Position numbers and translations under genes: made by a program | Shown here: one piece after another, positions 2,620 through 56,118 of the stretch | How the letters are laid out: each line of letters begins with the position of its first letter | Numbering within the stretch: position 1 is the first letter of the stretch | Assembly (NCBI GenBank): GCA_021234155.1 | Contig: JAJEKV010000003.1 | Span: forward strand, 27,883,166 to 27,947,165 | Source: Isoetes taiwanensis | Lineage: Eukaryota; Streptophyta; Lycopodiopsida; Isoetales; Isoetaceae | Length of the DNA: 64,000 nucleotides | Reading direction: 5' to 3' | The notes under the pieces: generated by a model | Told to the model about the DNA's origin: nothing | Databases searched by the model: none | The model's input: only the letters and a program-made list of their open reading frames with translations

Positions 2620-3465
2620 TTGCAACCGGGTGGAAGCTCCCAGCTTCATCCTCAGTTACTTGATCTTTTAGAAAGATACAAGGATGTGTTTCCCGAGGAG
2701 TTGCCCATAGGACCACCTCCGTCAAGGGGAGTGGAGCATGAGATTAACCTTGAGCCTAGAACTAAACCAATTGCAAGAGCGCCTTACCGCTTAAGTCCTC
2801 TTGAGTTAGAGAAAGTTAAAAAGCAAGTTAAAGAATTGCTTGAAAAGGGGTTTATCCAGCCAAGCAAATCTCCTTTTGTGGCTTCAGTGCTGCTACTTAA
2901 GAAAAAAGATGAGACTATGCGCATGTGCATAGATTATCGCGGGCTTAACAAAGCCACAATTAAGGATAGATATCCTTTACCACGGATTGATGATATCTTA
3001 GATCATTTGGGCAGTGCAACTTGGTTTATCAAGATTGATTTGAGAAGTGGATATCATCAAATCAACATCCGTGATGAACCAGAAACTGCTTGTCGAACTC
3101 ATCAAGGTCATTATGAGTTCATAATCATGCCGTTTGGTCTCACCAATGTGCCAGCTACATTCACGAGGTTGATGACTAAGTATTTGCTGATTACTTAGAC
3201 AAATCAGTTGAAGTATTCTTGGATGATATACTTGTTTACTCGAACTCATTGGAAGAACACTTTCAGCATCTAGAGCAAGTGCTTAAAGTGTTGTGATCCA
3301 ATAAGTTGTATGCCAAAATCTCTAAATGTGATTTTCTCAAGCAAAGAGTTGCTTATTTGGGTCACATCTTATCGAGGGAGGGAGTGTCTCCAGACCCTAG
3401 CAAGGTACGAGCGGTCCAGGAATGGATTCAACCTAAGAATGTTCATGACTTGAGAAGTTTTCTTG
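2620..3465 (+). pseudogene. Ty3/Gypsy reverse transcriptase, broken and truncated
   Basis: The frame to 3198 contains the classical opening ([21 protein letters not shown]), [33 protein letters not shown] and [14 protein letters not shown] frame change near 3,198 leads to VFLDDILVYSNSLEEH, the catalytic box with F-L-D-D in place of the usual Y-x-D-D, then a stop near 3,296. AYLGHILSREGVSPDP follows to about 3,462. Immediately after that the reading changes to Copia integrase, so RNase H and Gypsy integrase are absent. The RT family assignment is certain; the gene is dead. Confidence 0.9.
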
Positions 3466-3639
3466 TCACCTCTGCTCAATTCAAGTGTTTTTGTGAAGAG
3501 CATGGTATAGCTTGTGAGCCTATCATCACTGATTCCCCTCAGCAAAATGGTATTGTTGAGTATCAAGAATGTGCGATAATCAATGTTGTTCGATGTATGC
3601 TTATTCATGCTGGCTTGGATAAGTCATTTTGGGCAAAAA
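3466..3639 (+). pseudogene. Ty1/Copia integrase fragment
   Basis: The frame reads FKCFCEEHGIACEPI then DSPQQNGIVEYQE and LDKSFWAKT. These match the Copia integrase core (FKxFCxxxGI, PQQNGVAER, FWAEA). Glu-Tyr replaces the usual Glu-Arg after the Val, and the preceding catalytic Asp residues are missing because the domain starts abruptly at the junction with Gypsy RT. It is fused in frame to the Gypsy C-terminus, giving a chimeric reading frame of about 168 codons (3,306-3,812). Confidence 0.8.
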
Positions 3640-4015
3640 CTGGATATCCAGCTCCAGAAAAAACATACACAGTTTTCGTCCCAGTGAGCCCTCGAAAATT
3701 CACAACCGCCCCAGAACCAGATGCAGGCTCTGATACCATGTTGAATTTACTAGTTTTACTAAGAAAACACAAAAGAAAGGAATGCATCACAATACAAAGA
3801 CATGTTTATTGAATGATGTGTGTTACAATATATAGGACACAAAAAGGTCCACACATGGAAAAAGGTGAAAGCTATAAGGAGCTCTCGTCGCCTTTTTATA
3901 AAGGCACGCTGCCCTAATATAGGGACGCTGCATCTGGTTCTGGAGCGGTTGTGAATTTTCGAGGGCTCACTGGGATAAAAAACTTTGTATGTTTTTTCTG
4001 GAGCTGGATATCCAG
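3640..4015. repeat. Head-to-head inverted repeat of Copia 5' end
   Basis: The arms 3,640-3,726 and 3,928-4,015 are about 87 bases long and reverse complements with only a few differences. The outer ends carry CTGGATATCCAG. Both arms encode the start of a Copia gag (FSGAGYP), one on each strand. The plus-strand arm continues into the gag at 4,016. The minus-strand arm stops at GYP and runs into the integrase fragment. The spacer holds a minus-strand PBS and LTR end. This is a rearranged Copia 5' end, not a conventional MITE. Confidence 0.75.
3726..3738 (-). other. Copia primer-binding site on the minus strand
   Basis: The reverse complement is TGGTATCAGAGCC, an exact 13-base match to the plant initiator-Met PBS. 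The minus-strand sequence before it (3,740 to about 3,835) resembles a Copia LTR end, with a TATATA run and CAATAAA. This shows that the left arm is the 5' end of a minus-strand Copia copy. Confidence 0.75.
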
Positions 4016-6725: not shown

Positions 6726-7416
6726 CATAGATCTAGATTCTATTAATATTCCTCTAGATTCTCAAAGATTCTATGTAGATTCTCCTAGATTCTCTAAGAT
6801 CCTATCAAGGTTCCCCTATATTCTCAAATATTCTATAAAGATTCTCTAGGTTTCCATAAATTCTCTCGAGATTCCCATAGATTTCAAAGATTGTCCCAAG
6901 ATTCATCTAGATTCCCCACAATTCTATGTAGATTCCCTTAGATTCTATGAAGATTTTCGTGGGTACTCAAAGATTCCATCAACTAGATTCTTAAAGATTC
7001 CATCAGGAATTCCCTAGATTCTGAAATATTCTCTCAAGATTCACATAGATTCCCTAAGATTCTATGTCTTGAGATTCCCTAAATTCCCAAAGACTATTCC
7101 AAGATTCCTCTAGATTCCCCAAGATTCTATGTAGATTCTCTTAGCTTCCTGAGATCGTATGAGGATTCCCCTAGATTCTTGAAGATTCTCCCAAGAATCC
7201 CATAGATTTTGCAAAATTCTATATAGATTCTCCTAGATTCTCTAAAATCCTACAAAGATTCCCCTAGATTTCCAAAGATCCTAATGAGATTCCCTTAGAT
7301 TCCCTAAGGTTCTATTGAGATTCCTCTAAATTCCTAAAGGTCCCATGAAGATTCCCATAGATCCCCTTAAATTACATAGATTTCGTAAAATCCTAAGATT
7401 CTAAGAAGATTCTTAA
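6726..7416. repeat. Degenerate AGATTC minisatellite
   Basis: About 690 bases of imperfect tandem repeats built from words such as AGATTCCCCTAGATTC, CAAAGATTCTAT and GTAGATTC, with a unit of roughly 28-36 bases. GATTC recurs many dozen times, almost always on the plus strand. No frame is maintained. It ends where GGGCCCC-containing unique sequence begins. Confidence 0.8.
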
Positions 7417-8404: not shown

Positions 8405-8612
8405 GGGTAGTGGTCGTGTGGTGTGTGTAGTGTAGTGCATGTGGTCATGGTAGTGTAATATGTATAGTCTAGTGTAGTGTATATGTAGTGGTGTGGTGTG
8501 TTGTGTGTGTAGTGTAGTGTATGTGTAGTGTGTAGTGTATGTCTTAGTGTTTGTAGAGTATATGTAGTATGGTGTGTAGTGTGTGTAGTGTATATGTAGT
8601 GTGTATATTCTA
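8405..8612. repeat. GTGTAGT-rich low-complexity tract
   Basis: About 200 bases of GTGTAGTGTA-type microsatellite with irregular units. Long frames on either strand here (for example a Tyr/Thr/His-rich minus frame) are by-products of the repeat. Confidence 0.85.
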
Positions 8613-9437: not shown

Positions 9438-11408
9438 CACCCACAGCATCCAGGCCAATTCTTAGGACGACCCACCTTGTCCGGCCAATTCTGGGGCCGA
9501 TCATGTGTCGATTCGGTATTTGCCAAGCTTGTTGGTGGCATTCTCGGCGGCGATTGACCCGGCTGGCGAGGCGGATGTGCGAGCCCTCGCATAGCGGGCT
9601 TTAGACCCAGCCACTCAGCGATTGACCATATCTTTACTGCTGCGGGCCGATTGAAGCGGCCCGGAACCATCGGCCGGGGACTTGTATTCTTTGCTTTGTG
9701 GACTTGAAAGGCTTTTGATCTGGTACCGGGGAAAAGCTATGGGCTAGGCTGCGTCAAGTGGGGCTGCCATTTGCACGTGCAAATGCCATATACAGGCTGT
9801 ATGAGAGTTGTTTTGGCGGGGATCACGGTAAAGCGGGACCAAGCATTCACCCGGTAGTATCGGGGTCCGGCAGGTTGCCCCCTCTCACCAACACTTTTTG
9901 GCCTCTACATTGATCGGTTAGAGCCCCGGCTTATCGAAAGCATGGGGGGATGGCATACGGCTTTTGCACTGTGTCATCCGCCCACTCATCTATGCAGACG
10001 ATGTTGGCCTTCCCGCCCACACCCGAAGCTATGCGGGACTCATCCGGATGCCCTAGACACATTCTCGGGGCCTCTGAGACATGCGCGTGAATCGGCCAAG
10101 ACCGTGGTGGTTCTCATATCCTCTTCACGCCACCCCACGCCTCCCGCACTCACATATCGGGATACCGTGGAGGTCACGCCCACCTACAAGTACCTAGGGG
10201 TGGAGTTCCCCTCCCCGCCTCGTTGGGGGCGCCTATCCGGCTATGGGTGTGATAGGCCGGAAAGCGCTTTATGCCATGAACAATGATCACCCCAGTGAGC
10301 TCTAATGATTGGGGCCACCAAATCACATCATTTTTTTCGCAACCGGTGAGCCCGCCCTTCAGACGGGATTCGAGGTTTGGGGCCCGCCGTCTCTTTGGCG
10401 ACTGGAATGACTTGGAGCGAAAGTGCGAAGGCATTTTTGGCCGCAGGCACGCGGGGTGAAACCCGGTCCCCTATCGATTCTCTGCCAGGAAATTAGATTC
10501 TTGCGCTAGGCGGCAGCCCTTGATAGACACATCGTCTATTTTCGAAAAGTGGTTACTATGGGTGATGCTCGGCTCCCGCGACCTGCTTACTTCTGGTAAC
10601 GGGGCCCGCAGCGGCTTGATGGCGGCCCATTGAAGGGGTAAGAGAGATCGATGGTTCGCCCGGATGGAGCGTGCGGGAGCGCAATCGCGTCGCGGTGGAC
10701 GCAGAGGCCGATCGTGGCGACTGGCGGGAGTACACGGATGCTTGCTTCCTTGGCAAGCCTCGGGACCCCGGCTCTAGAGCAGGTCAAAGCGGTCCATTAC
10801 AAGGAGCACATCAACACCGTGTTAGCCCGGGGCCCACGGCTCTACCTGCGTTCCCCGGTGCTTGAAAAGCTAGCGGACTCATTGCCTCCATTCGCACGGG
10901 TGCCCACCATCTTCGCATCGAGGCAGGCGGTGGATTGGGGAGCCCCGCCGGGCGTGCTCTGTCGGTCTTTGTCAAATGGGTGCCATTGAGGATGAGTCTC
11001 ACACTTTCGAGTTGCCCAGTTTCGGTCCGATCCGGGCGGATCACGCCCCTTAAATGCAGGCGGACTTGCCCCTACATTTGTTGATGAACACACCGTTGGT
11101 ACGTGCCCTGGGGTCGTACATTCAGGAGATACTGGACCTGCGAGCTCACCTTTGCCCCCGCCTGGTTGCCCGCTGCTTAGGCACTACGGGTGCGGTGCAT
11201 GAGTGTATATATTTGTGTGTTTTTGCATTTTATATATTAGAACAGTTTGTCAGCAGGCTGATTGCTGCCACGGTTTTTCCCTCGAAAACCCTTCGGGGCG
11301 AGGGTTTTTTAATTCGGGTAGTAATCCGCTTGCTGCGTTTTTGTATTGGGTCCCATAGACCGATTGGTCTCCGTGGACGATAAAAATATCTTCCTTCCTT
11401 CCTTCCTT
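9438..11408 (+). mobile_element. GC-rich LINE with reverse transcriptase, decayed
   Basis: GC content is visibly much higher than on either side. Translations in changing frames give GFRPSHSAIDHIFTA, then KAFDLVP after a one-base insertion. A GVRQ(G)CPLSPTLFG-type block with one base lost follows (9,865-9,925), then YADDV at 9,991-10,005, the RT catalytic motif. KTVVVLIS and PTYKYLGVEF come after the RT, and an EDESHT segment lies near 10,990. The 3' end has a conserved hairpin and a (TTCC)n tail at 11,392-11,407. The element splits a protease-family copy whose sequence resumes at 11,409. At least four frame breaks make it inactive. Confidence 0.85.
11279..11304 (+). other. Conserved 3' stem-loop of the LINE
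   Basis: The outer stem is CCCTCG (11,279-11,284) with CGAGGG (11,299-11,304). After AAAA, the inner stem is CCC/GGG around a TTCG loop. The second LINE end at 15,954-15,979 has the same fold with paired changes. It is probably the RNA structure recognised by the element's RT; this role is inferred. Confidence 0.6.
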
Positions 11409-11825
11409 TAAAAGCTATAGTTTGCTACAATCTGTCCTTCTAAAAGAGATCTCCATTGTCTTAGCATCATGTGAAATAAAATAATCTTGTTGCATTATGC
11501 TTCCGATGATCCCAACACCATATGCATAACTGGGCCGTATCAATAAACACATTTGGGAATCGTCGCCGAAGCTCACATAATTCTCTTATGGAAGGTGCCA
11601 TGAATCCCCTTGAAATTGGAGATTAAAAGATGGCACTGCATATTTGAAAATCAAAGCAAACATTAGTAGCGCCATTATCTATTAAAGCTAGATGTGGCAA
11701 AGCATCAATAAATGCATCTTTTATAGCAAGAAACACTAGATACATGGCCAACGGAGTGCTTGAGTCAAATATGGTACCTGCTGAGTTGAGATCTATAGAA
11801 CAATTCTGATTGTTGCTAGAAAAGT
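11409..11825 (-). pseudogene. Nepenthesin-type protease, C-terminal fragment
   Basis: The minus strand gives FLAIKDAFIDALPHLALID, the same segment as in the better copy at 38,864, followed by frame-shifted remains of the C-terminal part to the final Cys region. No active-site Asp remains. It is the portion of the family copy lying downstream of the LINE insertion; the two pieces (9,230-9,437 and this) are one interrupted copy. Confidence 0.75.
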
Positions 11826-12026
11826 ATGAGAAATGTGGCCAAAATATTCTTTATATACTATATAATGTTTTTTGTAGGAAAAAAGGTGTGTTGTGCGTCT
11901 TGCGAGTCAAGAAAGTTCCTACTTGCTCAAACATACATTTATGGGAACCACATGGTATATGTATATTATGTCAATCACCTGAATGAAACAAAGAGTCTTT
12001 TGACTTTTGCATTCCGGTGTTTATAG

Positions 12027-12491
12027 TGAGGTTTTTGCAATCTGTCTTTCTTAAAGAGAGCCTCATTGTCTTAGCATCATGTAAAATAAAGAAATTTTGT
12101 TACATTATGCTTTCGATGATCCCAACATATTCATAACTGGGCCTTATCAATAAGCACATTTGGGAATCATCTTCTTAGCTCACATAATTCTCTTGTGAAA
12201 GGTGTCCTGAAACTCCTTGAAAGGATGAAAAAAAGGGCATAAGACATAAGGGTAACAAGAGAGCACAAATAAATGACGAACACAATGGTTTTTTTTTTTT
12301 TTTCATACAAACATACAAATACACATCTCATTGACAAAGCAAATGGCTTGCTAAATATTGAGAACATTGCAAAATATCCTCAACCTCACTATAAACACCG
12401 GATTGCTCTTTCTGGAGTTTGGTGATTGTACCAGTATATCATGGTAGAATGAACGTAGTTGCATTAAAATAATGAATGACTTTATAAGATA
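12027..12491 (-). pseudogene. Protease C-terminal fragment plus downstream sequence
   Basis: This is homologous to 38,009-38,440. The left part encodes the extreme C-terminus of the protease on the minus strand with shifts. The rest is shared non-coding sequence (AACAAGAGA, CATACAAATACAC, ATATCATGGTAGAATGAA). It ends at 12,491, exactly where a Helitron is inserted, and continues at 14,223. The 200 bases before it (11,826-12,026) show no recognisable gene. Confidence 0.7.
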
Positions 12492-12502
12492 CTAGTAATG
12501 GT

Positions 12503-12519
12503 GCCCAGCGTTGCTGGGC
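12503..12519 (-). other. Helitron 3' terminal hairpin
   Basis: GCCCAGC, loop GTT, GCTGGGC: a perfect 7-bp stem located 7 bases from the terminal CTAG. The element at 37,915-38,008 has the same stem position, spacer length and end, so both belong to one family. Confidence 0.9.
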
Positions 12520-12559
12520 ATAAGTTGAGAGCCTGTAAATGCTTTGGGATGCAATGAGA

Positions 12560-14092
12560 AAAGCCCTATCCCTTTCCCTTTTCCTTTTGCTCTATCCCGC
12601 ATTTCATTTTTTCTTATTTTCTCTACTTTTTCTTTTCTTTTCCTTTTTTTTTTCTCGTCTTTCTCACATGTTTCCTTGTTTTCCCATCCCTTTCCTTCCC
12701 CCTTCCCTGTTCCCGATAACCTTTTTCCCTTCCCTTTTGCTCCTTTCTCCACCTTTTCCCTCTTCTCTTTTTTCTTTGTCCTTTTCCCTTCCCCTTTCTC
12801 TTTTTTTATGCCTTCTCTTTTCCCCACTTTTTCTCAACCTTTTACTCTTTCGCCCTTTTCCATGCCTAATTTTCCTTCTCTTTTCCTCCTTTTACCACTC
12901 TTTTCCTCCTTTTTTTGTGTGCCCTTTTCCCTTCCATTTTTCTTTTCTCCCTCCCGTTTTGAATGCCCTTTTTACCTTCCCTTTTTCTATCTCCTCACCC
13001 TTTCCCTCTTTCCCTTTTCCATGTTCCCTTTTTCTCTTCCCATTTTCCATTTTCCTCATTTCCTTTTTCCCCTACCTCTCTCTCTTTCCCCCCTTTTCCA
13101 TTCTTTTTTCTTTTCTATTTCCCTTTTCCCATGCCTTTTTTCCCACCCTTTTCTTCTTTCTATTTTTCTCGTGCTTCCTTTTCCTCCTTTTCCCACCCTT
13201 TCCCTCTTCCGTGCAATTTTCCTTTCTTTCAACCCTTCCTTTTTCTTTTCTCTTTTCCTTTCCTCATGTCCTTTTTCCCTTTCCCTCCCTTCCATCACTC
13301 CCCTGCTTCCCTTTCCCTTTTTTCCCATTTCCTTTTCTTGATGGATTTTTTTCTTTCCGTTTTCCTCCTTTGCCGATCCTTTTCCTGTGCACTTTTTCCC
13401 TTCCTTTCCTTTTCCTTTTCCCCTTTTCCATGCCTTTTGCACATTGTTTTATTCTCTTATTTCCTATACCCATTTTCCTCTTTTCCCCACCCTTTCTCTC
13501 TTGCCCCTTTTCTTTTTCCTTTCTTCTTTTTTCCCTTTCTTCACCATTTTCCTCTTCCCTTTTCTCTCATGCCCTCCCCCCCTTCCCTTTTCTCGTTTCC
13601 CTCTTTCTTTTTCGTTGTGACCTTTACCTAGGTTCCCTTTCCCCCTTTTCCCTTTCATTTTTCTTTCTTCTCACTTTCCCTTTTTCTATGCCCCTTTTCT
13701 TTTCCCCTCTCCCCATCCTTTTCTTGTCCCCCCTTGTCCCTTCCCTTTTCCTCATTTTTCCAACCTTTCACTCTTCTTTTTCATGCTTTTTTTCTCCTTC
13801 GTTTTCTCCTTTTTTCAACGTTTTCCTCTTTTCTTTTTTTTTTTCATGCCCTTTCCATTTACCTTTTCCACTTTATCTCTTCCTTAAAATATACTTCCTT
13901 CCTTCCTTCCTTCCTTCCCTCGTGCCCTTTTCCCAGGTTCCCTTTCCCTTTTTCATTTTCCATGCCTTTTTCTCTTCTCTTATCCCCACCCTTTTCCTTT
14001 TACCCTTTTCCCTTTTCCCCATGCCTTTTTTCCCTTCACATACTTCCCTTTTCCTTTTCCCCCTTTTCATTTACCCTTTCCCCTTAAGAGAC
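12560..14092. repeat. 1.5-kb polypyrimidine minisatellite
   Basis: The plus strand is almost entirely T and C, with CCCTTTTCC, TTTTTCC and CTTCC units. It is punctuated every 55-110 bases by CATGCC or a close variant (for example 12,807, 12,858, 13,128, 13,426, 13,568, 13,684, 13,844, 13,957, 14,018). A pure CTTC run is at about 13,893-13,918. The 518-codon plus frame of Phe/Ser/Pro/Leu is a by-product of the composition. It makes up nearly the whole Helitron interior. Confidence 0.9.
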
Positions 14093-14222
14093 TAAGCATG
14101 ACCAATCACAGTGTTGGTAAGTCGTGCAATAAATCTAGGCCTTCGGATGCATCTAGATGATCTCGGCCATTCAAATTAGGGCTCGATGCATACGGTATAA
14201 CATTATAATTATAATATAAAGA

Positions 14223-14474
14223 TTTTCTTATGACAATATACTCAAACATTGCCATACTTTAAAGGCTCTGGCTCTTTTTATGACAAAAAATGTCTTTAAA
14301 TATGGAGCGGGGGTATCTAGTTGCATTTTAAACGTTTAGCATGCATATGGGTAGTTGCATTTTAGACTTGATTATACATTTTGATTGCACAATATGTTCG
14401 TGGTTTGGTGGCAAGTCATCTGTAGTTTGGTTGCCATGTTTTATGACGGAAAAAAATATTATCCATCTATATAT
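14223..14474 (-). repeat. Protease-locus 3' flank, continued after the Helitron
   Basis: Continues the host sequence of 38,446-38,690: ATACTCAAACATT, AAAGGCTCTG and TTTGGTTGCCATGTTTTATG. It ends where the SINE cluster was inserted; host sequence returns at about 15,640 with CCATCTAGGGATTGCC. Confidence 0.75.
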
Positions 14475-15707: not shown

Positions 15708-16083
15708 GTTGCCAGTTACAGGTTATTGAAGATGAAAGCCATACTCTTCTGAGTTGCCCTGCTTTTGAGATAGTCCGGAATCATTTTTCGACCTTAGCAT
15801 TCCATTCCACGCTTCCACAACTTCTCAGCGCACCATCTGTGCATGACTTGGCATTATACATACTTGAGGTTCTAGATAAACGTCTGCAATTACTGAGCCC
15901 TCAGTAGTCATTATCTAAGCTTGTCTAGTATCATCATTACTGCAAAGGTTTTTTCCTTGAAAACCTTTCGAGGCAGGGGTTTTTTAATCCTAGTAGTAAT
16001 GATTGTACTAGCCCATTGTATGGGTCCCATGACCTATTGGTCTTCGTGGACGTTAAAAAAACTATTCTATTCTATTCTATTCA
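15708..16083 (+). mobile_element. 5'-truncated LINE, same family as 9,438-11,408
   Basis: Only the last about 370 bases are present. The frame gives ESHTLLSCPAFEIVRNHF then LYILEVLDKRLQLL, ending in a stop. The matching part of the first LINE is EDESHTF...IRADHAP. The 3' end shares GGTTTTTTAAT, TGGGTCCCAT and GTGGACG words with the first copy and ends in a (TATTC)n tail at about 16,059-16,082. It interrupts the protease 3' flank between the ATAGTGC word and CATACTAGTGCA. Confidence 0.85.
15954..15979 (+). other. Conserved 3' stem-loop, second LINE copy
   Basis: TCCTTG (15,954-15,959) pairs with CAGGGG (15,974-15,979) using two wobbles. The inner stem CCT/AGG encloses TTCG. Compared with 11,279-11,304, two base pairs have changed from C-G to T-A on both sides. 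Confidence 0.6.
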
Positions 16084-16897
16084 TACTAGTGCATGAGTTC
16101 ATGACTCTAAGTAACAAATGGCGTAGTTTGATCCCTTCAAAATCTATAATTCGCTGCAACCTGTCTTTGTAAAAGAGATCGTCATTTTCTTAGCATAATG
16201 TGAAACGAGATGATTTTGTTGCATTATGCTTCCGATGGCCCCAACACCATAATAACCATGGCTTATCAATAAGCACATTTGGGAATCATCGTCGAATCTC
16301 ACATAATTCTCTTGTGGAAAGTGCCATGAAGCCCCTTGAAATTGGAGACTAAGGGATGGCACCTTCACGTTAGGCATATTTGAAATATCAAAGCAAACAT
16401 TATTGACGCCATTATCTACTAAAGCTAGGTGTGGCAAAGAGCAAGAAACACTGGATAGTTGAACATGGCCAGCGGAGTGCCTGAGTCAAGTACAATGCCT
16501 ACCGAGTTGAGATCCACAGAAGTATTGCATTTTGAAATCATGTATTGCCGACAATTACATTTTCAAGGTGGACATGGTATAAGCCATCTAGATTGTCAGG
16601 AATCGGAGTGGAATGACTTCAAGATGGGAAAGTGCCTCCAAGAAACAAATGGCCATCTATATCTTCAGAATAATGTGGGATGCAGTACAAGAACTTTTGA
16701 TCAAGGGAATAGACTTGCGAGAGGAGAGAACCATGTTTGAGATTTAACCCAAATAGGCCATCACCAAAATCTCTTATGACATTATGTGCGCAACCCATAG
16801 TTATGTTGGAAGTCAAAGTTCGATGTGAGGAGACAAGGGTTATGGAGTCTCTGACATATTCTCCAATATCCCCACTCTTATCTGCATATCAATCGTC
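16084..16897 (-). pseudogene. Nepenthesin-type aspartic protease, C-terminal half
   Basis: Minus frames 16,816-16,619 and 16,437-16,144 align with the copy at 38,864-40,203: HYSEDIDGHLFLGGTFPS, NMPNVKVPSLSLQFQG, and the ending TKTGC. Around 16,490 the second active site reads IVLDSGTP, intact. The N-terminal half, including the first DTGS, is absent. The copy ends abruptly at about 16,897 in the YADxSG segment, where a different dispersed repeat begins. Several frame changes make it non-functional. Confidence 0.8.
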
Positions 16898-26912: not shown

Positions 26913-27138
26913 AGGATGATAAAGAAGAAATATATTAGTCCAAGCTAAATCTAGTGCATTGCAAACCAAGCTCAAAAACTGCTAGGCTAATGCAAATAAT
27001 TAGCTAATGAGAAACAATGCTTTGACTTTGCTTGTGCAAATACCTGCTTTGTTGTTCTAGCTTTCAAAATATAGGGAATTCAGTGAAAGGGGTTTGGATT
27101 TAATAGCATTATTTGCTGACAAGCACAATAGATGATGC
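26913..27138 (+). repeat. 226-bp sequence repeated at the window end
   Basis: I see no difference from 63,775-64,000 over the whole 226 bases, and the match is cut only by the window edge. The two are 36,862 bases apart. No gene is encoded. It marks the start of another large duplicated block. Confidence 0.9.
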
Positions 27139-29816: not shown

Positions 29817-30185
29817 GAAGAACATTCAAAGAAGAAAAAAAAAAAACATTTGTAGTTTACTGCATAAACGTCTCCAACTCACTTCATTTTGCCAGAACCG
29901 CATCAATATCACTATAGGTAACAGCTGTGCTTGGAGCTTTAGTGTGGATAATTATCATATTAAAAATTACAATACAACTTGCAAAATGTCTTGCTCAATT
30001 TTGTGCTGCCAAAAGCACTATCAAGATCATTTCGTAAAAGCATGTAACAGTACTCCAATGATTGAATTGGAAAGGGCCCCGGGGTATCAAAGAAGAAAAA
30101 AGAAAACATTTGCAGTTTACTGCATAAACGTCTCCAACTCACTTCATTTCGCCACAACCACATCAATATCACTACAGATAACAGA
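29817..30185. repeat. Direct repeat, about 97 bp, 260-bp spacing
   Basis: Copies at about 29,826-29,923 and 30,086-30,184 share CATTTGYAGTTTACTGCAT and CTCCAACTCACTTCATTT, then CATCAATATCACTA. No gene is seen. Confidence 0.75.
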
Positions 30186-30565
30186 TTAGTGCATTTTGAT
30201 CCGTTCAAAAGCTATAATCTGTTGCAATCTATCTTTGTAAAAGAGATCATCATCATTTTAGCATCATGTGAAATAAGATGACTTTGTTGCATTATGCTTT
30301 TGATGACCCCAACACCATATGCTTAAGTCGGCCTTAACAAGCACTTGTTTTATGCATGGCAACACCATGCACTTCATACTAGTGCATCAGTTCATAACTC
30401 TGAGTAACAAACGAGTGCATTTTGATCCCTTCAAAAGCTATAGTTTGGTACAATCTGTCTTTGTAAAGAGATCGTCATCGTCTTAGCATCATGTGAAATA
30501 AGATGATTTTGTTGCACTATGCTTATGGTGACCTAAACACACATAACTGGGCCTTTGAAGCCCCT
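30186..30565 (-). pseudogene. Two tandem protease C-terminal scraps
   Basis: Both 30,190-30,330 and 30,412-30,565 match the extreme C-terminus and 3' flank of the protease family (GCATCATGTGAAATAAGATGA, GTTGCA(T/C)TATGCTT). Each is under 160 bases and includes no catalytic residue. They are minus-strand like all other copies in the window. Confidence 0.7.
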
Positions 30566-33879: not shown

Positions 33880-34840
33880 GAATAATAAACTTTAATGCGT
33901 TGAATAGAATGTGGATCATAACGACCAAGAATAGAGCCTGTGAAAGAACTATGTTCTGCCATTTCCCTCAGACACCAAATTGACAGTAGAGGAAGTGACT
34001 TCCTAAAGCCCAGTGAAGATGGTAAGAAAGAAATTCCTCCAAGGCTACCATTTCTCGTAGCTTCCACTTGATGCATAACACCGCCTTTACGTGGCCATAA
34101 AGGAATCCTTATGAGGGAAAACTTAGCTCCTAGCAATCTTCTTTACTTATTAAATGACAATTTGTAGAACATGTGGCATGTAGGTTCTCAAATTTTACGT
34201 TTAAACATTTTTCACAAGTGCACCAAACCTTTAGTTTCTTTACGCAACCTCCTTGGATGCAATTGTCATCAATGCCACAAACATGGCACCCCCGCCTTTC
34301 GAATATCGGGATGTCTACAATTAGAACAATGATAATTTCTTCTTTCAAAGCCAGTTGTCTTTGTCATGCGATTCGGTGCTCTTACTCTGGTTTTGAATCT
34401 CATCTTTTCCAAGAGCTCATGAGACTAGGATGTGGCACCACATTGAGTAAAATAACTACCGATCTGTAATAAAAATTCGAATATTGAATTCCCAACCTTT
34501 GTATAATTTGATTTTTGGATACATAAGGATAAGATCGACCGCATTAGCACAACCAATTCTGTGTACACCTTGCTGATGAATTCCACGTTGTAATTCATTT
34601 CGAATCGCTTGATAACGTGCTTTGCACCATAAAGAAGGCAACCACCATCAAGAGTGACACATGCATCAACAATCCCTTGCTGGTTTAGCTCGCACATAAT
34701 GCTTCCGCCCCCTTTGCTTGTAATATCTTGGCATGCCACCATCAAGAGTGACACATGCATCAACAATCCCTTTGCTGGTTTAGCTCGCACATAATGCTTC
34801 ACGCCTCCCCCTTTGCTTGTAATCTTGGCATGCCAAGTAG
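33880..34840 (-). pseudogene. GEN1/SEND1-type XPG-family nuclease relic
   Basis: Read on the minus strand from the right: CELNQQGIVDACVTLDGG then CLLYGAKHVIK (34,720-34,558), the XPG I-region. The usual D-x-D is D-G-G, so one metal-binding Asp is lost. After a frame change, RGIHQQGV.RIGCANA follows, the helix-hairpin-helix. Further on a Cys-rich part (CHVCGIDDNCIQGGC, WCTCEKC; 34,300-34,180) and LLSIWCLREMAE, HSIQRIKVYYSG (about 34,020-33,880) match the zinc-like and chromodomain regions of plant Holliday-junction resolvases. It resolves four-way DNA junctions when intact. The first exon (XPG-N) is absent. Confidence 0.75.
34649..34840 (-). repeat. 92-bp tandem duplication in the nuclease relic
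   Basis: ATCAAGAGTGACACATGCAT through TTGGCATGCC occurs twice in succession here and again twice in copy 2 (51,910-52,100). The duplication therefore predates the large one. It repeats part of the XPG I-region. Confidence 0.85.
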
Positions 34841-34869
34841 CTCGAAGCTCCTAGAAACAATAGAATTCA

Positions 34870-36050
34870 ATCCATTAAGTTTCTAACAAGAGGACATGTG
34901 GATGCCCAAGTCTTGCATGATCCCGAGGAAAAAAAAAAAAAAAGAAAAGGTCTTTTGCATCATACAAGGAACTTGCACAAACAAGAAGATCGGTCGGACA
35001 TTCATAATGTTCAAGAATTGCGTTTATGCCTAAACTTCGCTCATGGAATAAGATAAGAGATGCCCTCATCTATAACATTCACACCGCACATAGCAGGCCA
35101 ACATAGCATGCACATAGTAGACCAACATATGTGATAGCTCGGTTTTTGAGCCATGTATTGCATCTCCTCAGAAAAGCCCGAATGCATTTTTATCTCCTTT
35201 GGTATCGTGACCCAAAATTAGAGAATTCCATACAACTCGATTCAATGTTGGCAATCGTTCAAAGATCTTTAATATTACCACACTTGAAGCGGCACCAATA
35301 AAAAACATCCCAATTCAAGCCACTTCTTATAGTAAACGTGTGTATGTGTTTGCCCCAAGCTGGAGCTCTCTTACTTCCACAAACCGTCCGGAAGGCTTGC
35401 ATATGTAACTCTACCTTGTTGCATCTTATTAAAAACATTGATTGCCTCCTTGGCGGTCCATAAACAAACATCTAACTGTTGTCATTCATTCGGATCTCAC
35501 CGTAATTTTCTTGGACTACTATAGCTCTACTTTGAATCAATCAAGAGCAAATCCGGATAGAAAATATTCACTGCGCGAAGCGCCAAGACCTACAAGGAAA
35601 ATCTTGTGGAGTTCATATTGTTTGATCCAATATATCAAAACCGCTTGAATCAAGCTTTCTGAGAATCGTGCACACGCCAACACTCCGCTTGCTAGGAATT
35701 GCATCCCGGAATGTGGAATGAGAATGCAAATACCTAAATGCATTCCATGTATTAGGTATTATAAGCGCACATTTGGACGGTGCTCATTGAAAATGGATTA
35801 AAAAATGCTCTTCCATCGACTGTTTTAATAAGTGCGGTCGACCACCGCTTCTTGTAAAAAGCATCAAGGCAAGCAAGACTACCAAGAGGAAATCGGCTTC
35901 CCCACTGACCATCTCGTCGTCCGTTACACCACCCTCGGTGAGTATGTAGTATCGAAGCAACATGTTCATGTTTTTGGTAGGAGTTTGGTACAAGTGTGTT
36001 TTATATATGAGTATTTCCGTAGCATTTTCGTATGAAAAAGATTTGGTAGC
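34870..36050 (-). pseudogene. PPR protein relic, copy 1
   Basis: Minus-strand segments in N-to-C order: NVFNKMQQGRVTYASL, then GKHIHTFTIRSGLNWDVF (35,390-35,290), CGNIKDA, and LEHYECPTDLLVCASSLYDA (35,010-34,945), which matches the LEHYxCMVDLLGRAGxL block near the end of PLS-type PPR proteins. Many stops and shifts separate them. It stands in the same orientation as the nuclease relic and immediately before it. The upstream part to 36,050 is poorly preserved. Confidence 0.7.
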
Positions 36051-36425
36051 TAACTGGTAGCATAGGTGTGTGTTTTGTGTGTTGTTGTGTATATAAGAAA
36101 CGAACAAAATTTTATGTGCATGCTTCTTACGCCATGAAAAAATAGTTTCTCAATAGTTCTTTTGCTTTTCCGCTATGCCAACGGATCATTGGGTTGAAGG
36201 AAGACAGAACTACTTGGAGCCTTCTCCGTAGTAAATTTGAAAGCAAATGCGGTTGGAGGTATTATTGTTATCGTTATATTTAAGTTAATATAATATAATA
36301 AAATTGCCTATTATTGACTCCTCCTTCTTCAAATGCGGTAAAGACATGTTCTTTGGATCTCACATGTCCCATAAGTAATTGCGATGTGTAAGGCCCATGC
36401 AATATTTAACAACACCCGGGGCTCC

Positions 36426-36688
36426 TCTGGAGGTGCTGGGGGTCGGGGGGGCCTGGCCTCCCGGGAGGGGCTGGGGGTACAGGGGGTCCTGGAGGCGGCC
36501 CTGGAGGCCCTGGTGGCCCGGGAGGCATTGGAGTCAACCCACCTGATATTAGTCGACTCGTAAATGCTTGCCCTCCCATGCCGCACCATGCTCACAATGG
36601 TGCACCTGGGAGCCCAGGGTCAAGTGGTTCTCCTGGGCAAGATGGTGGACCTTGCGAAGTTGGAGGAGCAGGCGGCCCTGGGGGCTAA
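36426..36688 (+). pseudogene. Gly/Pro-rich reading frame, copy 1
   Basis: A continuous plus frame gives GGPGGGPGGPGGPGGIGV, then NPPDISRLVNACPPM, HNGAPGSPGSSGSPGQDGGP and a stop at 36,686-36,688. It has no start codon of its own and could be a 3' exon. The G-x-P composition recalls low-complexity RNA-binding or cell-wall proteins, but no family is identified. Copy 2 (53,740-54,000) carries an extra base before the stop, breaking the end. Confidence 0.35.
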
Positions 36689-37914
36689 ACCTTAGGTTGA
36701 GAGCTGAAATAAGTGCTGGTTGTTATGCCAGTCTAAAATCGTTGAAGCTTTTGCTGTAGAAGATGTCAGATTTTAAAAAACTATCAATAAGTTTGAGTAT
36801 GGAAATTTAAACTTTGAAAGCTCAGCAGTTTATGACAGCAAAAAATAGTAAACGCAAAAATAGAAAACGCTATGGTGGTCTATTTATGTAGTAGAGATTT
36901 TAGTTTCAGTTTTTATGACATGTTGTCAAATAGTTCCTCTGGAGATTTTACCAATATGTCCTCCTCTCTTCCAACTTCATAAGTCATTGTGTGACATCTT
37001 CCCAATGCAACTCTGGCTCAAGAATTGACCAAAGTTTTTGTAGAACACATTAAAGTGCTTGGCTCTATTTTTGCGTAGTATACAACATAACATATGGTTG
37101 ACGTCTAATTGTTGGTTATATGACATGAGATTTGCATGGAGAAGCATGTATCCATGTTGGAGCAGATCAAGGTAGATGAATATGTGAAATTGAAGCACAA
37201 AGTAAAATGAAAGCATACTTGGCTGTACATCTACTTAGGTCTTTCAAATAGACATTGGTAGAGCAAGATGATAATCCAACATTATTTCCAAAAAATCATA
37301 TACCAAATATCCTCCACAAACTTTCCCAACATCAAGCAATTAGCGATGCACATTAAAATGCTAAATATATTGTGGTATTATAGCTCAGATGCTAAATATA
37401 TTAATATCATGAATGATATTAATCAAATATATACACCCAATAACACAATTCTAAAAAAAAAATATTCTTGGATTTGAAGACTTTGTTATGGTTGGTAATG
37501 GTTTCTTTTTTAACATTTCCATGTGTTAGAGCTGCATTAGAGAGTAGCCAAAATCACAAAGAGAAGTAGTGAAAAGTAGAGGTGCATTAGAGAGTAGCCA
37601 AAATAGTTGACAAAGAAATAGAAGTAGTGAAAAGTAGCTCATTTACAAGTAGGATAGTTTTGTACGTTACCAAGTTAGCTTGAAGCTAGTATGTGCAATG
37701 ATTTAGCAACATCTATCTGATATTCCAATGACTACAAAAACGTGTTTGTATATTAGCTTGGGAGTTCATTTGCAATAATGTATTTTATGTGCAACGATTT
37801 GGCACCGTCTATTTGATATTCCAATGACTACTTACATTAGCTTGGGAGTTCATTTGCAATAATGGAAAATATATTTTGTATGGTTTTTTTTTAAACGTTG
37901 ATTAACCTTTGAAA

Positions 37915-38008
37915 TCTTTTATTATAATATAATAAAACGCTACACAAGTTGGAGAAAACATTTGCAGGCTCCCAAGCTATGCCTAGCATTGCTGGGCACC
38001 GTTACTAG
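37915..38008 (+). mobile_element. Very short Helitron-like element
   Basis: It starts TCTTTTATTATAATATAAT after A, and ends with a GCCTAGC/GCTGGGC hairpin (37,981-37,997), ACCGTTA and CTAG before T. The 3' 45 bases match those of the 12,492-14,222 Helitron (CATTTRCAGGCTC, then the hairpin at the same spacing). If both ends belong together the element is only 94 bp. No empty site was found for this insertion. Confidence 0.6.
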
Positions 38009-38440
38009 TTTTATAAGAGATCCTCATTGTCTTCACATCATGTAAAATAAAGAAGTTTTGTTGTATTATGCTTCCGATGATCCCAACACCATATTCATAA
38101 ATGGGCCCTATCAATAAGCACATTTGGGAATCATCGTCTTAGCTCACATAATTCTCTTGTGAAGATCCTTGAAATTGGACAATAAAGAATGAAGAAAAGG
38201 GGCATAAGATACAAGGCTAACAAGAGAACACAAATAGATGAAGAAGACAATGGCTTTTTTCAAACAAACATACAAATACACGTCACATTGACAACGCAAA
38301 TGGCCTGTTAAATATTGAGGATATTACAAAATATCCTAAATTTCACTATAAACACTGGATAGCTCTTTCTGGACTTGTACCAGATCAATATATCATGGTA
38401 GAATGAATGTAGCTGCATTAAAATAATGAATGACTTTACA
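38009..38440 (-). pseudogene. Protease C-terminal fragment and flank, copy 1
   Basis: Homologous to 12,027-12,491. The left 170 bases are the decayed protease C-terminus. The remainder is the shared downstream sequence leading into the intact locus's 3' flank. Confidence 0.7.
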
Positions 38441-38860
38441 AGATATTTTCTTATGACAATATACTCAAACATTCTCATACTTTAAAGGCTCTGACTTTCT
38501 TTATGACCAAAAAACCTCTTTCAATTTGGAGTGTGGGTATCTAGGTGCATTCTGAACATTTAGTATACATATATGTAGTTGCATTCTATACTTGATTATA
38601 CATTTCGATTGTACAATATGTCCCTTCCGTGGCTTGGTGGCAAGTCATCTGTGGTTTGGTTGCCATATTTTATGACGGAAAAAAATATTATCTATCTACC
38701 TAACTACCAAAACTTCTTATTTTCCCTTCCCATCTAGGGATTGCCCTCATTGCCTTCAGATAACAAGCACCTGTTAAAGAAATGGCAACATAGTGCACTT
38801 CATACTAGTGCATCAGTTCATAACTCTAAGTAACAAATGAGCATAGTTTGATCCCTTCAA
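38441..38860 (-). repeat. Protease 3' flank, copy 1
   Basis: About 420 bases shared with 9,230-9,437, 14,223-14,474 and 55,700-56,118. This uninterrupted version includes the empty site of the Helitron and of the SINE cluster and second LINE found at 12-16 kb. Confidence 0.75.
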
Positions 38861-38863
38861 AAT

Positions 38864-40203
38864 CTATAACTTGCTGCAATCTGTCTTTGTAAAAGAGAGT
38901 GTCATTGTTTTAGCATCATGTGAAATGAGATGATTTTGTTGCATTATGCTTCCGATGACCCCAACACCATATGCATAACTAGGGCTTATCAATAAGCACA
39001 TTTGGGAATTGTCGTCGTCGAAGCTCACATAATTTTCTTGTGGAAGGTGCCATGAAGCCCCTTGAAATTGGAGACTAAAGGATGGCACCTTCACATTAGG
39101 CATATTTGAAATATCAAAGCAAACAGTATTGACGCCATTATCTATTAAAGGTAGGTGTGGCAAAGCATCAATAAATGCGTCTTTTATAGCAAGAAACACT
39201 GGATAGTTAAACATGGCCGGCGGAGTGCCTGAGTCAAATACGATACACTGAAAGTTGAGATCTATCAGTATTGCACCTTGAAATCACAAGTATTGCCAAC
39301 AGTTACACTTTCAAGGTGGACATGGTATAAGCCATCTAGATTGTCAAGAATCGGAGTGGAATGACTAGAAGATGGGAAAGTGTCTCCAAGGAACAAATGG
39401 CCATCTACATCTTCAGAATAATGTGGGATGCAATATGAGAACTTTCGATCAAGGGAATGAAGTTGCGAGAGGAGAGAACCATGTTTGAGATTTAACCCAA
39501 AGAGGCCATCATTAAAATCTCCTATGACGCTATGTGCGCAACCTATAGTTATGTTGGAAGTCAAAGTTCGATGTGAGGAGACAAGGGTTATGGAGTCCCT
39601 GACATATTCTCCAATATTCCCACTTTCATCTGCATACCAATAGTCATATACACACGAGTCATGATGACGACTATATTTCTTAGGATCATGAGGGCAAGAG
39701 GATCGCGTCAAAGATGCACATTCATGGGAATGGCAAGAGATGGAAGAAAAAGAAGTTGAATGAGAAGGATCGAGCATTGGGCCAGTACATTCCTTGCAAG
39801 GGCTACATTGTATCCAAACCAATTCACTCCCAGTATCCATGACTACTAGGTATTTTTTTGGTGGACTACCTACATACACCTCCATCATGTAATTTGCTCC
39901 AGATGCTCCAGAATATAGGGGATATAGGTTGCTTTTATATGGACCTTTTATTCTAGCCATGAGGGTTTCCCATCGCTCATTGCTTCTTATTGCTCCTCGA
40001 GCTAGCTTCTCAGGTATGGATAGACCTGCATCTACATGATGCAATTTTGTTCTATATACTTCTGCCTTTGCTACTTGTCCAATCACCCCGAGTATGAAGA
40101 AAATCCATAATAATACACTCACACAAGTGCTTGCCATGACATACAACATTCTCATGACCGCTATTGATATATATATGCCAACTCTTACTTTTAAAAATGC
40201 CAT
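38864..40203 (-). CDS. Nepenthesin-type aspartic protease (one frameshift)
   Basis: Predicted secreted or vacuolar A1B-family pepsin-like protease. The 312-codon first frame starts at 40,203; the Met at 40,137 (MASTCVSVLLWIFFILG) looks like the true signal-peptide start, with a TATATATA run just upstream. After a propeptide the mature part begins near MMEVYVGSPPKKY. The first active site is VMDTGSELVWIQC, with the Cys-rich nepenthesin insert (CSPCKECTG, SSCPHDPKKYSRHHDSC) after it, the flap YADESGNIGEYV and GLFGLNLKHGSLLSQL. The second active site, IVFDSGTP, lies at 39,215-39,240 in another frame, continuing NVKVPSFSLQFQG to TKTDC at 38,864. Total length (about 430 residues) is normal. One small indel near 39,240-39,265 breaks the frame, at a site where the two copies disagree beside CTG. 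It could be an intact gene misread, or a young pseudogene. There is no intron. Confidence 0.8.
40160..40180 (-). promoter_or_regulatory. TATA-like run before the protease start
   Basis: Minus-strand CATATATATATC lies about 30 bases upstream of the Met at 40,137. If used as a TATA box it would favour a downstream start. Weak evidence. Confidence 0.25.
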
Positions 40204-41905
40204 TGGCCCCTTTTCCCCTTAGCCTTTTACCTTTGGACACTCTGTTTCCTTATTAGGTTTCGCATTCGTCCTTCGTTGTTGGCATTCCGTTGCGTTGCGC
40301 CTTCAGGAATCAAGCTTGCTCGGTAAGCCCCAGAATCCTGTATGTTGTTGTATGCCGGAATGCCATGTTCAATTCCGGCAGTGGCTTACTGTTCAGGCAT
40401 GTTTGTTCAGGGATGTTCAGTCAGCATTGTGTTGATTTCAAGATTTTGTATGATTTAGTCCTTTGAGCCATGGAAATAAAGCAGGAATTTAGTTTTTTTC
40501 ATTTCTTCTCTTCATCTGAATTCCATCTCCTGACTTAGGGTCCCATTTCCATGCGAGCAATGGCGGGAGACTATCCAAATGATTAAATTTGAATGGCTAG
40601 AGCATGACATCAAACGTCAAGCCATTGAATTACAATGTTTGCAGAAGATGGCAGAATTGGCCACTTTGATTGTTCACCTTTGAACCAACCATTAGTTTTT
40701 GTTATGATGTTTAAGAACGAGATTAGGGTAATAATCTGTTGAACAATCTGGTGAGAATAAATAAAAACAGAATGACAGGAGCAATGCTTTTGGCCAATGT
40801 TGAGGACTTCCTCTGATGCCTGGATCATTAATAAATTCTCCAGCTTGAGCCTTGCGGCAATGGCCAGCCATTATAGCTAGCTTATCCTGTAACAGAAAAT
40901 GCTGATCTTACGTTTCAAGCTGTAACAAAAAAATGTTGTATCATGGTACCGATGGATACACAGGCATACAATGCAACAACAATACTGACATGGCAATTTT
41001 GAGCTTCAGAAGAAGAAGTAGAAGTTTAAGCATTGAACCATTTAAAACCTTGAGATCTTTGAATTTTATGCTCTGTTGAACTCTGCATAGGCATTGCAAA
41101 TTGCAGGCAGCAATCTGTTCCTGAAGCTCTTTCTTTACCATATTCAGAGCAACTAATAGATGCTCGTCCTAATTAAAGCAGATTTCCGGTTCCCATATAC
41201 AATTTGTTTGAAGGCATGGCAGAGCTGGCAACCCTCCATGCGTTAGCACCTTATTTTCTTACATGAAGTTTTTCAAGCTCATATAAGTTAGCTGCAGTAA
41301 AAATAGATTATTTTATTGCAAGCTCATCAATTAGCTGCAGGTAGAATAGTGTTTTGCTCCTTATTCTATATGTAATTTATAGGCTACAAACATCAGCATT
41401 CACACAGTCTATATGTGTACTAATATGGTAGCTCATTGTAACCGAATATTTATGATTCCATTATTTGATATTGCTTACTGCAATTAAGTGCAAATTCAAG
41501 GAAGCTTGCATTGATGCATCTTGCAGATGCGGGATCATGTGGATTCACATGCCAAAATAGGTGACATGGTAAACTGGTACAATTTTGTGTGGATGCCATG
41601 TTTATTTAGAACTAATTTTGTCTCATCAGGCTTGGCATACTACCACTAGATAAAGCATGAAGTGTAATGGGCTGAATTCTTTGTTGAGCACTGGCTCCAA
41701 GAACTCAAGTAGATAATTTTAGGAGTATTGCATGCATCTTTTATCCTATTCCATTTATAGTCCTATCGCATCTGAGATAATTTGGTTGTTGTGTGGATTG
41801 CTTTCAAAGCTCAAAGAGATACATTTTAATATGTTATATCAACGAGCCTTAGAAAATTGCATGTTCAGAAAGTGACTAATTCATTGAAATTAATAGGTGA
41901 ACAGA
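40204..41905. other. Upstream region of the protease, no gene recognised
   Basis: Duplicated almost unchanged at 57,459-59,160. Short minus frames (40,610-40,828; 40,941-41,141) are identical in the two copies but match no family. It would contain the protease promoter. Confidence 0.4.
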
Positions 41906-42430
41906 TATGCATCGTGCTTCTAAATGGGATATAGAATGTCATCTTTGTGCGGACCATATCTTCACAAGAACTTATGTGGCAGATATCTTTGCGGGTGCAT
42001 AGGTTATATAGGCATTGACTTGAGAAGTATGATCTAAGTTAGATGGATTTAAAACAAAGTATTATAAATTAGAACCATAGGTTATGTAGGCATTGACTTG
42101 AAGAAGTATGATATAAGTTAGATGCATTTTATTTAAAAGAGAGTATTATGCAAGATGTTTTGGGTTGCTGGAGGGAATATTCTCTACATCCGCAGGTCAA
42201 GGGCAGGTTATTTGGTGTATAAATTTTTTTGAACCATTGGTTTTAGGTTTTTTTCATTTTTTTCTTTTTTTCTTTTTTTCTTTTTCTTTTTTGCTTCATG
42301 TGTTCTTACTTAACGTCTGAGCTGTTGCAACCATTGAACTTACGTGTTGTTCATTGCCACAGAGACGTTAGCAAGTTCTCTGAAATTAGGTGGCAGAAAG
42401 GATGGATTGAGAAACGAAGTAAGGCGGCAT
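41906..42430 (+). repeat. Dispersed repeat Y, copy 1
   Basis: Matches 16,898-17,300, with an internal partial duplication of GATTTAAAAC / ATTAGAACCATAGG / GCATTGACTTGA words (42,005-42,110). It contains a T-rich tract at 42,240-42,290. Confidence 0.65.
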
Positions 42431-42529
42431 AAACAATGACGGGAATGCCTTGTAAACCTACACATTATTGAATCTTGCTTCAACTTCCTTCCCTTCTCCT
42501 ATGGTTTGACGGCTAGTCCTTTGGATTGG

Positions 42530-43610
42530 CAATTAGGAGGCCTTGTGTTTAAGTCTACATAGAGAGGACCTCATATAGGGGTTCTCATTAAAATCTACAT
42601 ATATAAACAAGCAGATATATCGAGCTATTGCCTTTGTAATACTGATAACTAACTGGAAACGTAGTGCATCAATGATACTTGTTTATTTATGAAAATGTGG
42701 CAACAAAATGCCATATATGTCTTTGTACCATTCAGTGAAAATGTTTAATGTTTAAAGTTTAAGCTTATTTATTAGGTTAGCCTACTTTTTTAGGTTTATT
42801 AGGTTAGCCTACATGCTTATTTATGGAAAATGTGGCCACAGAATATACTGCTCATGTCTTTGTACCATTCAAATGTTGCAATTTTTTTTAAGTTTATTAG
42901 CTTGGGCTATTCCAGTTAGTTAGTACCAGAAATTGGTAGGGTCAAGAGATATTCTTGAGTTGTGACTTGGGATTAACAACCTATAGAAACTACACTAAGG
43001 CCCGTAGAGCATGAGTGCCTTGGATAAGTTCCTCATAAAATGTTGCATTATAGACACGCAATATGGCGTTCTTGTAAGCAAAGTCTGTCTTGGACATATA
43101 GGGGACCTCATATAGGGGTTCTCATTAAAAGTTGCATATATAAACAAGCAGATATATCGAGCTATTGCCTTTGTAATACTGATAACTAACTGGAAACGTA
43201 GTGCATCAATGATGCTTGTTTATTTATGAAAATGTGGCAACAAAATATTGGATATGTCTTTGTACCATTCAGTGAAAATGTTTAATGTTTAAAGTTTAAG
43301 CTTATTTATTAGGTTAGCCTACTTTTTTAGGTTTATTAAGTTAGCCTAGATGCTTATTTATGGAAAATGTGGCCACAGAATATACTGCTCATATCTTTTT
43401 ACCATTCAAATGTTGCAATTTTTTTTAAGTTTATTAGCTTGGGCTATTCCAGTTAGTTAGTACCAGAAATTGGCAGGGTCAAGAGATATTCTTGAGTTGT
43501 GATTTGGGATTAACAACCTATAGAAACTACACGAAGGACCGTAGAGCATGAGTGCCTTGGATAAGTTCCTCATAAAATGTTGCATTATAGACATGCAATA
43601 TGGCGTTAGC
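42530..43610 (+). repeat. 537-bp tandem duplication, copy 1
   Basis: GCAGATATATCGAG occurs at 42,611 and 43,148, and the sequence between repeats nearly unchanged, including GAGCATGAGTGCCTTGG at 43,009 and 43,546. No gene is recognised in the unit apart from the start of the 43,548 frame. Confidence 0.9.
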
Positions 43611-43937: not shown

Positions 43938-44079
43938 GATTAAAATTTCTAATTCTCTATCTCTATTTATTGAATGTAAAAATATCATATCTTATGAATA
44001 TAAGTGATGGTGTTATGTATGTTCTTTTGATATATTTTGTCCCCACAACTATATCATCAAACAAACCAATGTAATAACA

Positions 44080-51780: not shown

Positions 51781-51802
51781 TTAGGGACGCCCGAACCGAA
51801 TC

Positions 51803-52110: not shown

Positions 52111-52129
52111 TAAGCTCCTAGAAACAATA

Positions 52130-55167: not shown

Positions 55168-55265
55168 TCTTTTTTATTATAATATAATAAAACGCTACAC
55201 AAGTTGGAGAAAACATTTGCGGGCTCCCAAGCTATGCCTAGCATTCTTTGAGCACCAATTACTAG
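55168..55265 (+). mobile_element. Very short Helitron-like element, copy 2
   Basis: Counterpart of 37,915-38,008. The terminal hairpin is spoiled: GCTGGGC is written as CTTTGAGC. The CTAG end before T is kept. Confidence 0.5.
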
Positions 55266-56118
55266 TTTTATAAGAGATCCTCATTGTCTTCACATCATGT
55301 AAAATAAAGAAGTTTTGTTGTATTATGCTTCCGATGATCCCAACACCATATTCATAAATGGGCCCTATCAATAAGCACATTTGGGAATCATCGTCTTAGC
55401 TCACATAATTCTCTTGTGAAGATCCTTGAAATTGGAGAATAAAGAATGAAGAAAAGGGGCATAAGATACAAGGCTAACAAGAGAACACAAATAGATGAAG
55501 AAGACAATGGCTTTTTTCAAACAAACATACAAATACACGTCACATTGACAACGCAAATGGCCTGTTAAATATTGAGGATATTACAAAATATCCTAAATTT
55601 CACTATAAACACTGGATAGCTCTTTCTGGACTTGTACCAGATCAATATATCATGGTAGAATGAATGTAGCTGCATTAAAATAATGAATGACTTTACAAGA
55701 TATTTTCTTATGACAATATACTCAAACATTCTCATACTTTAAAGGCTCTGACTTTCTTTATGACCAAAAAACCTCTTTCAATTTGGAGTGTGGGTATCTA
55801 GGTGCATTCTGAACATTTAGTATACATATATGTAGTTGCATTCTATACTTGATTATACATTTCGATTGTACAATATGTCCCTTCCGTGGCTTGGTGGCAA
55901 GTCATCTGTGGTTTGGTTGCCATATTTTATGACGGAAAAAAATATTATCTATCTACCTAACTACCAAAACTTCTTATTTTCCCTTCCCATCTAGGGATTG
56001 CCCTCATTGCCTTCAGCATAACAAGCACCTGTTAAAGAAATGGCAACATAGTGCACTTCATACTAGTGCATCAGTTCATAACTCTAAGTAACAAATGAGC
56101 ATAGTTTGATCCCTTCAA
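55266..56118 (-). pseudogene. Protease C-terminal fragment and 3' flank, copy 2
   Basis: Counterpart of 38,009-38,860, almost unchanged, including the unoccupied Helitron site at about 55,695-55,715. Confidence 0.75.

Follow-up and report, generated by a model that had tools for sequence, protein, structure and literature searches.

A non-autonomous Helitron with a purine-rich interior and a paralogous empty site in Isoetes taiwanensis

The window, i.e. the whole stretch of DNA that was analysed, comprises 64,000 nucleotides of the Isoetes taiwanensis contig JAJEKV010000003.1. Outside the purine core described below it contains ten long open reading frames, seven of which match retrotransposon-type or zinc-knuckle domains and one of which matches TAXi_N, while 3297-3812 and 44078-44539 match nothing. 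A large block is duplicated (34540-44547 and 51802-63191) in five main pieces, which are 92-98% identical; the two copies are separated by about 17.3 kb for most pieces and by 18.6 kb for the last one. The first copy of the block holds aspartic-protease frames (TAXi_N, TAXi_C) at 38864-40218, and TAXi domains are suggestive of a plant. Furthermore, copies of the aspartic-protease last exon with its downstream region are dispersed over the window at about 79-88% identity (Table 1). Two tandem arrays at 6735-7362 (AGATTC-type) and 8407-8605 (GTGTAGT-type) lie outside the Helitron ends that were found. A stretch of 226 bases at 26913-27138 recurs with 100% identity at 63775-64000, reaching the window end, and this pair is perhaps a recent retrotransposon copy. 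No tRNA gene was detected in the window by ARAGORN.

Table 1 Features discussed in the text, in window coordinates.
Feature	Position	Strand	Remarks
H1, complete non-autonomous Helitron	12492..14222	-	1731 bp, TC...CTAG, inserted A^T
H1 5' terminus	14191..14222	-	starts TCTTTATATTATAATTATAATG, A+T-rich
H1 5' region without repeats	14086..14222	-	137 bp
H1 core	12564..14085	-	1522 bp, decayed GGGAAAA-like repeats with interspersed GGCAYG
H1 3' terminal region common to H2	12492..12545	-	83.3% over 54
H1 3' hairpin	12502..12520	-	8-bp stem, AAC loop; stops 10 nt short of the 3' end
Empty site A^T, paralog 1	38445..38446	.	self-BLAST and joined-flank alignment
Empty site A^T, paralog 2	55702..55703	.	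in the duplicate of paralog 1, not independent
H2, second 3' end of the family of H1	37955..38008	+	TTACTAG, then T
H2 duplicate	55210..55265	+	right arm of hairpin altered
H2 as 94-bp miniature Helitron, candidate only	37915..38008	+	A, then TCTTTTATTATAATATAATAAAAC...CTAG, then T
Aspartic-protease last-exon/downstream copies	11405-11796, 12036-12222, 16080-16448, 30179-30545, 38009-38173, 38854-39265

Read on the minus strand from 14222 to 12492, the element H1 starts with TCTTTATATTATAATTATAATG and ends with TGCCCAGCAACGCTGGGCACCATTACTAG, thus exhibiting the canonical Helitron termini (5'-TC and 3'-CTRR) in the form TC...CTAG. Both termini coincide with breaks in a self-BLAST alignment of the window: the left flank, 12051-12491, aligns to 38011-38445 (83.9% over 448) and the right flank, 14222-14469, to 38445-38698 (87.0% over 254), and both flanks also align to adjoining pieces of 55268-55955. 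When the two flanks were joined by script and compared with the two paralogs, the alignment crossed the junction without a break, ...AAAA^TATC.... Both insertion points, 38445^38446 and 55702^55703, fall inside the unoccupied sequences that the original prediction had placed at 38,434-38,460 and 55,695-55,715; its minus-strand element with 5'-TC, CTAG and insertion between A and T was likewise recovered, each feature at an alignment break. The target is thus A^T without duplicated bases, as in canonical Helitrons (A^T or T^T), and it is seen empty in two duplicate copies. As the paralogs belong to a duplication of 98.4% identity (36926-42655 versus 54186-59926, self-BLAST) which holds both empty sites, and are identical across the 201 bases compared around them, the two represent one site seen twice. 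Since H1 starts with T and a T follows it, its ends could equally sit one base further, so that the placement at A^T is a convention. In line with canonical Helitrons, which lack terminal inverted repeats, no inverted pair of at least 16 bases is present in 12400-14300; shorter terminal inverted repeats were judged by eye only.

To the right of H1, comparison with the paralog (38698/38723) shows a second insertion, the segment 14471-15631. It holds a unit of some 260-400 bp in three copies, which are 91-94% identical. By eye, parts of it look like tRNA-type A and B boxes, and it is perhaps a SINE.

The 3' end of H1 carries a hairpin of 19 nt (8+3+8) located 10 nt from the end, within the canonical ranges of 16-20 nt and 10-15 nt, respectively. 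The hairpin that had been predicted therefore exists, with a stem of 8 instead of 7 bp and a loop of 3 nt. Folded as DNA it reaches a z of -3.88, and none of 200 shuffles was as stable; we presume that it acts as the transposition terminator. A scan for CTAG preceded by a hairpin (7-bp stem, at least 4 G/C) returned 2 places in the window, H1 included, versus 3 in 20 simulated windows. A possible Helitron end at 30382, which came from the hairpin scan, was rejected: a paralogous alignment (30335-30545 to 38761-38971) continues through this point, which relative to that copy therefore marks no insertion edge. Viral contigs contained no exact match to a 3' end pattern.

Relatives of this 3' end occur at two further places in the window, H2 and its duplicate, both on the plus strand and both with CTAG followed by T. 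In nhmmer searches, a model derived from these ends themselves gave E values of 5.9e-19 for the end at 38008 and 8.9e-17 for that at 55265; with H1 as the sole query, the values were 6.6e-08 and 0.002, respectively. The duplicate matches the H1 3' end with 76.8% over 56. Helitrons are assigned to one family by the right end if the terminal 30 bp there are about 80% identical or more. With 26 of these 30 positions identical, as counted by eye, H1 and H2 belong to the same right-end family. Upstream of the about 54 shared 3' bases the DNA of H1 and H2 is unrelated. On its right, H2 is flanked by an aspartic-protease exon fragment which starts just after the CTAG at 38008; this fragment, 38009-38173, aligns to 38886-39056 inside the frame with the TAXi_C domain. 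Because other window copies of this exon stretch continue through the same point, H2 seems to be bounded on its right by an insertion edge, at a different kind of place from that of H1. The hairpin of H2 includes a T-G pair and does not stand out from shuffled sequences, 67 of 200 of which were as stable (z -0.35). Between 37980-38008 and 55235-55265, four substitutions and two gap columns fall in or beside the right arm of this hairpin, and the flanks of the cluster are nearly identical between the duplicates (23 substitutions in 2749 columns overall); the cluster is not unique, as another with 11 substitutions is found at 39200-39299.

The left edge of H2 was not found, either by short-word BLAST with four paralogous left flanks or by ranking of TC sites, and the sequence left of H2 does not match the missing part of the host exon. 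BLAST and nhmmer searches of the window with the 5' part of H1 gave no H1-type 5' end for H2. The position 37915 ranks fourth of 7610 TC sites in its resemblance to the H1 5' end, with H1 itself first, and would make H2 a 94-bp miniature Helitron; against this start, nhmmer returns no match there and the left flank is unlike the host exon. More generally, the left terminal 30 bp of H1 have only weak candidates elsewhere among the 7610 TC sites and none by nhmmer, which found no relative of the 5' terminus (14191..14222) elsewhere in the 64-kb window. For the 137-bp 5' region, BLAST and nhmmer revealed no significant relative there. The second-ranking site, 11848, lies in 11797-12035, a stretch for which BLAST finds no counterpart elsewhere in the window. 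Against a second 5' end at this site, its TC is preceded by T, and inspection by eye of the sequence up to 12240 showed no CTAG behind it.

No second copy with both ends was found in the 64-kb window. The joint recurrence of the two ends elsewhere, by which the original prediction was to be checked, was thus not obtained within the window, in which the 3' end alone has convincing further occurrences. Its central claim, a Helitron with defined ends and an empty site in the same window, is supported by the alignments and further by the second 3' end. If H1 were instead another kind of insertion, or an assembly join, with TC and CTAG at its edges by chance, a missing second complete copy in the 64-kb window would be in line with that. 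Such a reading has to account for TC, CTAG, a hairpin at 10 nt, A^T and an unbroken empty site together with a related 3' end at another site, and we regard it as exceedingly improbable. The chance of a hairpin-CTAG end on one alignment break with TC at the other was judged to be very small. H1 is a non-autonomous Helitron.

As regards its coding content, the core contains an open frame of 518 aa (12539-14095, plus strand). No Pfam match was found in it, which speaks against a protein; the frame is probably open by composition, as a pyrimidine-rich strand holds few stop codons. A RepHel domain was absent from 11 of the 14 window frames of at least 150 aa, the three frames left out of the scan being other frames of the purine core, and likewise from the shorter frame 38864-39283.

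The core of H1 is the only purine or pyrimidine segment reported by a scan of the window. On the TC...CTAG strand its purine content amounts to 89.6% (A 52%, G 37%), and consequently the pyrimidine-rich interior described earlier holds for the plus strand, whereas the element's own strand is purine-rich. The minisatellite that had been proposed for this interior is only partly borne out. The total number of 33-base approximate self-matches (at least 26 of 33 bases) is 617 and exceeds all simulations, with maxima of 222, 368 and 495 for orders 1, 2 and 3 (60 simulations each). The Tandem Repeats Finder (TRF) results, in contrast, are no higher than the null, and no clean unit emerges: default TRF yields only scattered short arrays, whose summed score of 849 is within the simulated range (means 468, 654 and 908 for orders 1, 2 and 3), and permissive TRF gives a 14-base unit with 52% matches, whose score of 424 was reached by 19, 37 and 73 of 100 simulations of the respective orders. 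The largest 33-mer family has 6 copies, a size reached by simulations (maxima 6, 6 and 8), and the best 40-base self-match (34) was reached by one of 8 second-order simulations. The best lags, 14 and 7, have z values of 3.3 and 3.2, uncorrected for their choice among 199 lags.

Within the core, GGAAAAGGG occurs 13 times (mean 2.3, maximum 8 in 1000 second-order simulations) and CATGGAAAAGGG 3 times (mean 0.04, maximum 1 in the same number of simulations). GGCATG, found 7 times, is above first-order simulations (mean 0.29) and within second-order ones (mean 3.1, maximum 10). Furthermore, the core includes a (GAAG)n run of 28 bases. A G-quadruplex filling was considered and not adopted; four such motifs lie in H1, compared to 2.07 on average in core simulations, and 2 in the rest of the window. 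In our reading, the core is a strongly decayed purine repeat that lacks a defined unit.

No relative or donor of the purine core was found elsewhere in the 64-kb window. Together with its standing as the sole purine or pyrimidine segment in the scan and with the (GAAG)n run, which fits slippage, this would be consistent with a tract that is not cargo of the family and grew by slippage from a short purine seed in this copy of the same Helitron after insertion. The tract is long and much decayed and its growth hence old; the identity of 84-87% between flanks and paralogs sets only an upper bound on the insertion age. We consider this course of events possible, while leaning against it. Still a little less likely, in our view, is that the tract is host DNA which the same Helitron gained by read-through or template switching prior to insertion and which then became a passenger. 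According to the available text of the Helraiser report, flanking DNA is transduced by Helitrons that run past the terminator (PMC4778049), and H1 and H2 have only some 54 bases of the 3' end in common, the DNA upstream of which is unrelated; a donor locus, on the other hand, was not found in the window.

The reading that we prefer, and as a whole hold with high confidence, combines the Helitron identity with transposition as deduced below and with a captured or seeded purine repeat that has since decayed. In keeping with the established mechanism, a RepHel protein from an element elsewhere would have nicked a donor copy of H1 before the TC, and we infer that the nicking site lies after the flanking A. 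The purine-rich strand would then have been peeled off as single-stranded DNA and stopped by the 3' hairpin; after a cut behind CTAG, a circle would have been joined into the A^T site, the landing site apparently lying downstream of an aspartic-protease gene copy. The tract most likely began as a simple purine repeat that came to lie between the ends by capture or seeding, expanded through slippage or unequal exchange, and later decayed; it may stem from capture or from growth of a seed inside the element, before or after insertion.

For Helraiser, the accessible part of the published work reports single strands cleaved before TC and at the CTAG end as well as circular intermediates (PMC4778049). 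The model put forward by its authors runs from nicking and unwinding to a pause at the hairpin and joining, and hairpin removal led to more read-through (PMC4778049). The preference for A^T was strong and not absolute, with 46 of 1,751 insertions elsewhere (PMC4778049). By analogy, H1 possesses the cis features for transposition of the Helraiser type and may have moved that way. From the Helitron mechanism alone it would also follow that the tract is copied with each transposition; a second copy with the purine cargo of H1 was not found in the 64-kb window.

Helraiser and Helibat1 of bats resemble H1 in their TC/CTAG ends, preferred A^T insertion and a 19-bp palindrome 11 nt from the end, and differ in that Helraiser is an autonomous reconstructed element encoding RepHel, according to the same available text (PMC4778049). 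Similar in description is DHH_Mothra of rice, whose report in its available part lists 1,682 copies of non-autonomous Helitrons with a consensus of 1993 bp (PMC4683698). Like H1, Mothra is a non-autonomous plant element of about 2 kb with TC...CTAG and a hairpin near the 3' end, and its interior consists almost wholly of repeats, arranged in two direct-repeat blocks (about 80-900 and 950-1860) with six repeats per block, one block having 20% GC (PMC4683698). Unlike Mothra as described there, H1 is represented by one complete copy in 64 kb and holds purine-rich, decayed repeats with 41% GC. Cg_HINE of Crassostrea gigas likewise comprises non-autonomous rolling-circle elements with satellite-like repeats in the centre, but it belongs to the Helentron superfamily and to an animal, and the accessible text gives 13 array clusters in 11 dispersed elements (PMC7492417), compared to one element without a definable unit here. 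Xuan-Feng of wheat shares TC/CTAG and a small hairpin 11 nt from the 3' end and has a non-autonomous member of 2,513 bp, its family being defined by 30-bp ends; unlike H1, it is reported as active with potentially autonomous members, and repeat filling is not mentioned in the available part of that report (PMC13286980). Furthermore, a review names Helitrons as spreaders of satellite-like arrays, as far as its available text extends (PMC9659126). Judging from these partial texts, repeat-filled Helitrons are already known, and H1 differs from them in purine composition and decay. Among the literature matches listed, none described a purine-filled Helitron in its title or the beginning of its abstract, which is no proof of absence.

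The composition of the filling bears on the structure of the strand that would be transferred. As one base class cannot pair with itself, this strand is nearly structureless: folded as single-stranded DNA in 5 pieces of 300 bases, the core has a mean of -0.0069 kcal/mol per nt, compared to -0.098 kcal/mol per nt (sd 0.032) for 412 pieces of the rest of the window, none of which was weaker. Perfect 6-bp hairpins (loop 3-8) number 0 in the core versus an average of 3.3 per kb in 39 other stretches, at least one of which also lacks them. The complement of the core is no more structured than the transferred strand, with -0.0045 kcal/mol per nt. Selection acting on one strand to keep its structure low was therefore rejected; the low structure follows from base composition and carries no sign of selection. 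We nevertheless mention, as quite improbable, the proposal that the purine filling is not neutral and that low-structure filling is a convergent aid to the complete transposition of gene-less Helitrons, the filling being purine-rich in H1 and very A+T-rich in one Mothra block. In such a scheme, the filling being unstructured, the terminal hairpin would stand alone in H1 as a stable terminator-like structure. Otherwise H1 is ordinary as a mobile element and unusual in its composition, and it provides a clean case in which the Helitron ends, the target and the empty site are all defined within 64 kb.
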